Below the pieces are notes generated by a model. The model made no database searches. It saw nothing but the letters and a program-made list of their open reading frames with translations, and was not told where the DNA came from. A stretch of 64,000 bases of DNA. Origin: Natrialba sp. SSL1. Lineage in GTDB: Archaea > Halobacteriota > Halobacteria > Halobacteriales > Natrialbaceae. Below, piece by piece: positions 28,537 to 31,248 of this stretch; within the stretch, counting starts at the first letter, position 1; each line of letters starts with the position of its first letter. The stretch is from positions 1 through 64,000 of the forward strand of contig NZ_MASN01000060.1 in assembly GCF_001861355.1 (NCBI RefSeq), written 5' to 3'. Both the position numbers and the translations under genes were made by a program.

Positions 28537-28734
28537 CTAGAACTCGTGTTCGACGTCGTCCTCGTCGGCCTTCTGGATGATGATTTTTCCGTCCCGGACT
28601 CGGACGAAGACTTCGTCGCCGATATCCATCCCCGCGACTGCGAGTTCGTCCTCGTGGAGATTGAGGTGGACGTTGTGATAGTTGCCGTCTTCGTCTTTCG
28701 CACCGCTTGGACTCAGCTTCTTTTTCCGTACCAT
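28537..28734 (-). CDS. AbrB/SpoVT-like small DNA-binding protein
   Basis: A 65-residue basic-then-acidic protein. The start MVRKKKLSP is followed by VHLNLHEDELAVAGMDIGDE and VFVRVRDGKIIIQKA, the pattern of a swapped-hairpin AbrB/MazE beta barrel (strand, DIGD turn, VRxGxIxI strand). Such proteins are transcription regulators or antitoxins; no toxin gene is adjacent. It is a small conserved protein of haloarchaea as far as I can recall. Its TATA element predicts a leader of about 10 nt. Confidence 0.8.
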   Translation of the reverse strand: MVRKKKLSPSGAKDEDGNYHNVHLNLHEDELAVAGMDIGDEVFVRVRDGKIIIQKADEDDVEHEF

Positions 28735-28968: not shown

Positions 28969-29277
28969 ATGGTACGAGAAGACGGTAAGCGAAACTTTGC
29001 GCTGCGGTCGTCGAACGGTGAAGAAGAAAGTGTGTTCTCTGGGAACACACCACGCCAGGCCGCCCTCAAGGCAGCCCGCCGACTCGACCCTGGCTCGAGT
29101 GAGGACGAAGCCGATCGAACCGAGCTTCGACTGCGTGAGAAGGGAACGGACAAGGTCCATATCTACGACGGCTGGGCCTGGGAGGAGACGGCACCCGATG
29201 ACAAACCTGACTGGATGCCCGACGAGATCACGGAGGCCAACGTCTCCAAGAAAGGGATCGATCACCTAGAAGAATAA
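28969..29277 (+). CDS. MC1 family non-histone chromosomal protein
   Basis: A 102-residue architectural DNA-binding protein homologous to methanogen chromosomal protein MC1. Diagnostic pieces appear in order: RNFALRSSNGEEESVFSG, TPRQAALKAARRLD, ELRLREKGTDKVHIYDGW, then PDWMPDEITEANVSKKGIDHL. MC1 binds and sharply bends DNA as a monomer and contributes to chromosome compaction. Compared with methanogen MC1 it has extra acidic residues, as expected for a cytoplasm rich in potassium chloride. It is transcribed away from the AbrB-like gene. Confidence 0.93.
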   Translation: MVREDGKRNFALRSSNGEEESVFSGNTPRQAALKAARRLDPGSSEDEADRTELRLREKGTDKVHIYDGWAWEETAPDDKPDWMPDEITEANVSKKGIDHLEE

Positions 29278-29335: not shown

Positions 29336-30106
29336 CTAGTCTGCGTGTTCCGCCCGGTCCGTTGGACTGTTCGGGCCATCCGATCCGCCTTGTCCTCCAC
29401 CGCGACCCGGGTCGCGGTCAGTTCCAAGCGAGCGGAGACTCGTCGCCTCGGCAGTCTGTGCGAGCGCTCGCTGGCTTCGGACGACGATGCCACCAAATCC
29501 GAGGATCAGGACAACCTCGACGTAGATAACGACGAGTTGGGCGACGAAGTCGTCGGCGAGCCCGGCGCCTTCGGAGATGATTCCGGTTGCAACCAGTCCG
29601 ACCCAGCCGAGGACGATGAGATACTTGAGTTTGGTAAATAGCAGTTGCCGCTCGGACTCGAGTGCCTTCGCGGCGCGGCTGAATGGACCGAACAGGAGGT
29701 ACAGGCCGAGCCCGAGCGCTGCAAACGTCCCGAGTGTCGCGAGGAGCGCGAGCGCGCCGTCGATGAACCAGCTTCCGAGGGTAATCCAGACGCGGCCGAG
29801 AACGGCGGCGAACAGGAGCAGCGTCAGCCGTCGCCCGACGCCAGCAACCGCACAGACGACGAGGACGATTGCGATCCACATGAACGTGTAGCCGACGAAG
29901 CGAAGCACGTCGGTTTCGGCACCAAAGAGACCGCTCGCGAGCGCCATCAGCACGTACGCGAGCCCCATTGCGCCGGCGGCGATGGCTGCGGCGTAGCCGT
30001 AGCGATGAGGACCGGACGGCAGCGACCGTGCGTAGCCGCCGAAGACTGCAGCGGCTGCGAGAAACACGGCACTCGAGACGGCGAGCATCGGTGTCGTGTC
30101 GATCAC
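29336..30106 (-). CDS. Opsin-family seven-helix membrane protein lacking the retinal lysine
   Basis: A 256-residue protein with seven hydrophobic helices between about 7 and 210 and a hydrophilic tail. The last helix (IYVEVVLILGFGG) aligns with the helix G motif of microbial rhodopsins: Glu197 falls at bacteriorhodopsin Asp212 and Ile201 at Lys216, with the following GFG retained. In helix C, LRFVGYTFMW aligns with the ARYADWLFTT region: Arg69 matches Arg82, but Gly72 replaces Asp85 and Val83 replaces Asp96. It therefore cannot form a retinal Schiff base by the normal route. GTG start at 30106 has a GGAGG 11 nt upstream; ATG at 30088 is the alternative. Confidence 0.75.
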   Translation of the reverse strand: MIDTTPMLAVSSAVFLAAAAVFGGYARSLPSGPHRYGYAAAIAAGAMGLAYVLMALASGLFGAETDVLRFVGYTFMWIAIVLVVCAVAGVGRRLTLLLFAAVLGRVWITLGSWFIDGALALLATLGTFAALGLGLYLLFGPFSRAAKALESERQLLFTKLKYLIVLGWVGLVATGIISEGAGLADDFVAQLVVIYVEVVLILGFGGIVVRSQRALAQTAEATSLRSLGTDRDPGRGGGQGGSDGPNSPTDRAEHAD

Positions 30107-30429
30107 GGGGAGGTCCCTCCGAGCGAACGGACGATCGGTAGTCGGGTGCGATTCGACGGCTGTCGATCCGGTGTGAGCTGCGGTCGTCTCATCTGAAGTC
30201 GTCTCCGGAGGGAGTGTGTGAGCGGGATGTGCAGACGACTGTTTCGATACCGGATAACTGTTATCGCCGATTCGGGGGCTACCGGCGCAGATAGCGGTTG
30301 ACTCACACCGATTGGGGGTCGTATGTCATATCAAGTGGGTGTTCTGACGTGAGAGTCCACTGCCATAACACCGGCAATCGTCAGTTCAAACCCCGGGTAT
30401 TTTGACCGTCTCTCGGCAAACAGAAGGCG
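30107..30429. other. 323-bp intergenic region between divergent genes
   Basis: It separates the opsin-like gene (minus) from pheA (plus). No gene is supported. A GGGTATTTTGACC stretch at about 30387-30399 may hold the pheA TATA element. GAAGG just before the pheA ATG could act as a ribosome binding site. Confidence 0.4.
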
Positions 30430-31248
30430 ATGACTGCAGTAACTCTCGGCCCCGAAGGGACCTACTCTCACCGGGCGGCTCAGGCGATCGCCGACGCGGA
30501 CGCGATCGACTTTCGCCAGTCCGTCACCTCGATCGTCGACGCCGTCGCGACCGGCGAGTACGACCGCGGCGTGATCCCCATCGAGAACAGTATCGAGGGC
30601 AGCGTCACGGAGAGCCTCGATGCGCTCGCCGAGTACGACGTCGCCGTCGTCCGCGAGATCGTCACCCCGATCAAACACGCCCTGCTCGCACAGGGGCCGG
30701 AGTTCGAGACGATCGCCAGCCACTCCCAGGCGCTCGCGCAGTGTCGCGCCTACCTCGAGCGCGAGTACCCCGACGCCACGCTCGAAGCCGTCGCGAGCAC
30801 GGCCCAGGGGGTCGAGTTCGCCCGCGACGATCCCACCATCGCCGGTATCGGCCATCCCGCCAACGCCGACACCGGCACCGAACTCGAGGTCCTCGCCGAA
30901 GACATCCAGGATCAGGACTCCAACGCGACGCGATTCTTCGCCGTCGCGCCCGCCGAGGACCGTTCGAAAGGCGGCGGCAAGACGACGCTGGTCGTCTACC
31001 CGAACGCGAACTATCCCGGCCTGCTACTCGAACTCCTCCAGCCGTTCGCCGACCGGGACATCAACCTGACTCGCGTCGAGTCCCGACCGAGCGGCCAGCG
31101 GCTGGGAGATTACGTCTTCCACGTCGATATCGAGGCGGGGCTCTACGAGGCGCGGACGAACGAGGCGATTGCCGAGTTAGAGGAGCTCGCCGAGAAGGGG
31201 TGGGTTCGCCGACTGGGCTCGTACGATCTCGAGCACGTCGTCGAGTAA
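30430..31248 (+). CDS. pheA: Prephenate dehydratase
   Basis: A 272-residue monofunctional enzyme that converts prephenate to phenylpyruvate in phenylalanine synthesis. Residues 1-180 form the dehydratase domain, opening with LGPEGTYSH and carrying the catalytic TRFF at 167-170. The C-terminal ACT domain holds the ESRP motif (217-220), which mediates feedback inhibition by phenylalanine in the family. No chorismate mutase domain is fused. It stands alone here, about 5 kb from pheST. Confidence 0.95.
   Translation: MTAVTLGPEGTYSHRAAQAIADADAIDFRQSVTSIVDAVATGEYDRGVIPIENSIEGSVTESLDALAEYDVAVVREIVTPIKHALLAQGPEFETIASHSQALAQCRAYLEREYPDATLEAVASTAQGVEFARDDPTIAGIGHPANADTGTELEVLAEDIQDQDSNATRFFAVAPAEDRSKGGGKTTLVVYPNANYPGLLLELLQPFADRDINLTRVESRPSGQRLGDYVFHVDIEAGLYEARTNEAIAELEELAEKGWVRRLGSYDLEHVVE

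Follow-up and report, generated by a model that had tools for sequence, protein, structure and literature searches.

An opsin-related protein of group B lacking both the retinal-binding lysine and an adjacent transducer in Natrialba

The opsin-like gene of Natrialba sp. SSL1 described here encodes a haloarchaeal opsin-related protein (ORP) of group B, a class that was already described in 2016 and is not new. The gene was found in a 64 kb stretch of DNA, referred to below as the window (Table 1). Three observations are added to what is known about the family: a residue signature that defines a subclade, the loss of the transducer gene from a fixed chromosomal slot, and an upstream element shared by opsin and transducer genes. 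Comparison of sequences makes it fairly probable that the protein is a retinal-free subunit that serves as the receptor in a taxis or signalling complex and works in trans via a transducer encoded on contig C30 of the same genome.

Table 1. Features of the opsin locus in the window. Codon positions count from the GTG at 30106.
Feature	Position	Strand	Basis or remark
MC1 chromosomal protein, left border of the slot (context only)	28969..29277	+	PF05854, E 3.6e-49; synteny
ORP, group B, 'YVE' subclade, 256 aa, GTG start	29336..30106	-	open reading frame and translation; PF01036; tree; residues
Codon 201, Ile, at BR K216 / NpSRII K205 (retinal-binding lysine)	29504..29506	-	alignment columns
Codon 197, Glu, at BR D212	29516..29518	-	alignment
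Codon 105, Arg, at BR M118 / NpSRII V108, retinal-ring pocket	29792..29794	-	alignment
323-bp gap at the place of the ~1.65-kb transducer gene of other genera	30107..30429	.	synteny
Palindrome GATAACTGTTATC, core of the conserved upstream element	30253..30265	.	146 bp before GTG
15-bp element GGCRATAAYNNTTAT (here GGCGATAACAGTTAT)	30254..30268	-	common to ORP-type transducer promoters
Prephenate dehydratase (pheA), right border of the slot (context only)	30430..31248	+	PF00800, E 2.6e-49; synteny

The reading frame is open over its full length and ends in a stop codon. Membership in the Bac_rhodopsin family, proposed in the initial annotation, was confirmed by a profile search, in which residues 5 - 211 of the translated sequence matched PF01036 with an E value of 8.5e-7 and a score of 29.1 bits, above the cut-off of 24.6. 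The protein is a family member without the retinal-binding lysine. A search of solved structures with the single sequence returned sensory rhodopsin II and bacteriorhodopsin at ~4e-4. A profile made from nine Natrialba relatives matched the sensory rhodopsin II of Natronomonas pharaonis (NpSRII) over its full length with an E value of 1.9e-18, ahead of all pumps, and hhalign related these proteins to lysine-bearing opsins with a probability of 98.7%. The ancestry, as these profiles show, is of the sensory type, on the sensory-rhodopsin branch. The seven-helix topology is derived from homology and hydropathy, because an AlphaFold2 prediction with a three-sequence input (mean pLDDT 45) added nothing. 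The nearest relatives are the proteins of N. hulunbeirensis (89%) and N. chahannaoensis (87%).

The retinal site is altered. Alignment with lysine-bearing opsins bore out the assignments made earlier from the sequence alone, and the residue numbers used there (R69, G72, V83, E197 and I201) are correct in the translation. In helix G, bacteriorhodopsin D212 and K216 correspond to E197 and I201. In helix C, D85 and D96 correspond to G72 and V83, so that both carboxylates of proton transfer, acceptor and donor, are gone; W86 is replaced by Y73, and Arg82 is kept as R69. Helix G has no lysine elsewhere, because the only lysines in the full translation are residues 147, 159 and 161. The pocket carries four further replacements (W189 by Gly, Y185 by Leu, G122 by Thr and M118 by Arg), and the W182 equivalent is retained as W168. 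The tyrosine that contacts the transducer in NpSRII, Y199, is kept as Y195. Judged by its sequence, the protein is predicted to have no retinal chemistry.

Becker et al. described 48 haloarchaeal 'opsin-related proteins' (PMC4915679). In their group A the K216 position is Arg; in group B it is Leu or some other hydrophobic residue. Group B is further marked by the replacement of W178 by Gly and Y174 by Leu, with Y51, R72, Y199 and D189 kept (NpSRII numbering). Many ORPs adjoin HAMP/MCP transducers, but 15 members of group B are unlinked. Two ORPs were purified and failed to bind retinal; of nine tested for transcription, eight were transcribed (PMC4915679). The Natrialba protein has I201, G175, L171, Y51, R69, Y195 and D185, as expected for group B; Ile201 is not the Arg of group A. 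It also shares with group B the opsin fold, the Natrialba hosts and the partial lack of linkage to transducers. The present search found three ORPs in N. magadii, the same number as given in PMC4915679; the third (L081) probably corresponds to WP_004215682, one of the ORPs examined there for transcription.

To sample the family, 125 genomes of the taxonomic family and 391 of the class were searched, which yielded 78 ORPs. These were aligned with 13 lysine-bearing opsins, and a tree was calculated without columns 197 and 201, using a 'quick' method with SH-aLRT support and no bootstrap. ORPs separate from the canonical, lysine-bearing opsins with an SH-aLRT value of 100, and the protein from the window lies on the ORP side. 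None of the 78 aligned ORPs has a lysine in the K216 column, and all 78 have Tyr in the column of NpSRII Y199. The search found no viral copies. Four other opsins without the lysine (L121, L123, L124 and L074) have His at the K216 position, and three of the four adjoin transducers.

Within the ORPs, the Natrialba protein belongs to a clade of 22 members (SH-aLRT 100), for which the label 'YVE' was coined in the present analysis. The K216 column of the clade contains only Ile, Leu or Val, a distribution that had been proposed as a sign of a distinct function, and no lysine was seen elsewhere in helix G of any of its 22 members. The D212 column is Glu in all 22 YVE members, whereas it is Asp in all 36 other ORPs of group B. 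The M118 column is Arg in 21 of the 22, compared to none of the 69 other opsins aligned, and Asp66 is likewise present in 21; Arg105 and Asp66 are lacking in the same member, the long-branch L122. In the text of PMC4915679 this subclade (Glu for D201 and Arg for V108 in NpSRII numbering, and Asp at residue 66) is not set apart, nor are the loss of a transducer from a fixed slot and the common promoter element described.

The gene occupies a slot that is conserved in several genera in the order pheST, small protein, MC1, [opsin, transducer], pheA, bcp, hsp20 and leuS. In the window, pheA is followed by genes for a peroxiredoxin, Hsp20 and LeuS. The small protein next to MC1 in the slots compared is represented by a 65-residue frame on the minus strand (28537-28734), which resembles AbrB by eye and looks like a DNA-binding protein. 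In many genomes of the Natrialbaceae, MC1 also has a transporter of the NarK family as a neighbor, once together with NasA; this holds for 45 of the 63 genomes that carry NarK.

Of the 15 YVE members from other genera, 13 have an adjacent transducer gene on the same strand, usually overlapping the opsin gene or separated from it by a few bases. The transducer is 5' of the opsin in all linked members except L122, where it is 3'. The N-terminus of the cognate transducer resembles that of N. pharaonis HtrII (E 6e-29), including the Asn of the INLG motif in TM2, and the single full-length cognate transducer that was scanned contains HAMP and MCPsignal domains. In all seven Natrialba species the slot and the opsin are kept, but the transducer is missing from the slot. 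The gap between the opsin start and pheA contains no transducer remnant, and no MCP core was found within the window, so the protein lacks the adjacent partner of an SRII-HtrII pair. Loss of the transducer in Natrialba is more likely than its gain elsewhere, because the linked members span the YVE clade and Natrialba is nested within it. The opsins L085 and L100 are further unlinked YVE members. The opposite event has possibly occurred at L142 (G043 C3:3403781-3403996 and 3405269), where an ORP-type transducer is accompanied by a seemingly decayed opsin with a frame of 92 codons.

The palindrome GATAACNGTTATC has a single copy in the window, 146 bp 5' of the opsin gene. The overlapping 15-bp element GGCRATAAYNNTTAT gave 24 matches in 2.18 Mb of strand searched; these do not represent 24 independent events, because overlapping loci and related species are among them. 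The downstream genes that were identified, a set without L142, L143 and a few short loci, all encode ORP-type transducers or orphan YVE opsins. The element lies 67 - 93 bp 5' of the transducer starts. Besides positions 30254-30268 of the window, it is found at loci L081-L085, L096, L097, L100-L104, L108, L110, L112, L113, L135, L136, L142 and L143. In 0.865 Mb of the window's genome, which is about 19% of the total and was chosen to take in both known sites, there are two copies compared to 0.02 expected from base composition: one precedes the opsin and the other precedes the C30 transducer. The element is possibly the operator of a regulator.

One intact ORP-type transducer was found per Natrialba genome; for the genome of the window this is the C30 transducer, with genes for CheA and archaellin nearby. 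The only extra match (L141 6160-6918, at a contig end of G000 C48) is a fragment of a second ORP-type transducer that ends at a TnpB-like frame and was probably broken by a mobile element; as it derives from the other transducer type, it was rejected as a displaced cognate transducer. From the shared DNA element and the pattern of presence and absence, we infer that the orphan opsin is coupled in trans to the C30 transducer. The receptor would respond to something other than light, probably a small ligand that enters the vacated pocket with the subclade-specific Arg105 and Glu197. The stimulus would move helices F and G, and the transmembrane helices of the C30 transducer would take up this movement and relay it to CheA and the archaellum. 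The coupling in trans, the binding of a ligand in the changed pocket and the output via CheA are the conjectural steps of this scheme. The output may not be swimming, because the closest relatives, N. hulunbeirensis and N. chahannaoensis, are apparently among the species called non-motile in PMC4915679 (its ref. 24). A more specific version is tentative: the YVE proteins could form a distinct ORP lineage with a charged Arg105/Glu197 ligand pocket, in which Natrialba dropped the transducer and uses a paralogous one in trans under a shared promoter element.

The rather unlikely alternative that the orphan ORP acts without any transducer draws on the absence of one at the window locus and on the suggestion that unlinked members of group B regulate other processes, such as stress response or membrane homeostasis (PMC4915679). 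Several unlinked ORPs are located near heat-shock genes (PMC4915679), and here Hsp20 is 2.2 kb away. However, Hsp20, bcp, leuS and pheA belong to the conserved slot and also surround linked ORPs; these genes are kept together as one block, so the proximity of Hsp20 says little about function and was discounted as a clue. The positions that contact the transducer are unchanged in the orphans, which differ consistently from their linked relatives only at residues 19 and 127, and the promoter element common to opsin and transducer genes also speaks against independence. That the opsin is a relic in decay since the transducer was lost is improbable. It evolves somewhat faster than the neighboring genes, but its frame is intact in all seven Natrialba species, its upstream element is kept, and dN/dS among Natrialba is 0.17 - 0.33, overlapping the 0.15 - 0.28 of transducer-linked paralogs (NG86 method, with dS near 1 for the more distant pairs). 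A pseudogene was rejected on the basis of the intact frames and dN/dS, and the orphan gene is apparently maintained under purifying selection.

The buried Arg could bind an oxyanion, and a NarK-family MFS transporter is found 3 - 901 bp away in seven YVE loci (with NasA adjoining once) and in no other ORP loci, which would fit a nitrate or nitrite receptor. This idea was rejected as positional, because NarK adjoins MC1 in 38 genomes without a YVE opsin at that locus and is therefore a feature of the MC1 neighborhood, not of the opsin. Nine YVE genomes, including that of the window, have no NarK ortholog at the threshold used, and a nitrate receptor is highly improbable. Equally slight is the chance of a photoreceptor with a non-covalent or alternative chromophore. 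Other chromophores were left open by Becker et al. (PMC4915679), and the W182 and Arg82 equivalents are kept, but the four pocket replacements argue against it, as does the retinal synthesis side of the genome: Brp/Blh (PF15461) was not detected in it or in three other Natrialba genomes, while the same search found it in all six control genomes, which have lysine-bearing opsins. In a separate case, locus L006 (G005 C1:2654074, probably N. magadii) holds a halorhodopsin-like gene with the lysine, in a genome without a Brp/Blh match. The least probable possibility is a carrier derived from opsin pumps or a heteromeric partner of a retinal pump, for which the bacterial Rh-noK sets a precedent (PMC10308929). 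The initial annotation had offered 'sensor or carrier'; the sensor half is in keeping with relatives that are co-encoded with HtrII-like transducers, whereas no evidence for a carrier was found. The profile is closest to sensory rhodopsin, donor and acceptor carboxylates are lost, and no potential partner was seen: PF01036 has three matches in this draft assembly (99.5% complete), all without the lysine, and alignment revealed no lysine-bearing opsin among them, although the PF01036 search passed over some divergent ORPs that an ORP profile picked up.

Beside the group B ORPs, the SRII-HtrII system of Natronomonas pharaonis is among the closest known systems. NpSRII is the best-matching solved structure, its contact residues are kept in the Natrialba protein, and the ORP relatives are paired with NpHtrII-like transducers. 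The differences are the missing retinal lysine, the altered pocket and the lack of an adjacent transducer. Fungal ORPs, to which the protein was initially compared, are also opsin relatives without the lysine, but they are reported to have arisen by independent losses on other branches and to be evolutionarily distinct from the haloarchaeal ORPs (PMC4915679), which are the direct relatives. Rh-noK and most freshwater FArhodopsins likewise miss the retinal-binding lysine; however, they are related to xanthorhodopsin or proteorhodopsin and adjoin a functional rhodopsin or flotillin (PMC10308929), neither of which was found here. In the open-access literature no functional study of haloarchaeal ORPs after 2016 was found.

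The subclade signature, the loss from a fixed slot and the shared element together make the question of ORP function testable. The residues characteristic of the YVE subclade point to a candidate pocket for what ORPs sense, and the promoter element ties the orphan opsins to one specific transducer. The genus-wide natural loss of the transducer provides a clean test of whether ORP receptors can share a signalling partner. In the sequence examined, the motif was seen only at genes of ORP systems, and it gives a handle on the regulator and, through it, on the stimulus. If the more specific version outlined above is true, Natrialba would possess an opsin-type chemoreceptor that works without retinal and whose receptor subunits can be exchanged.
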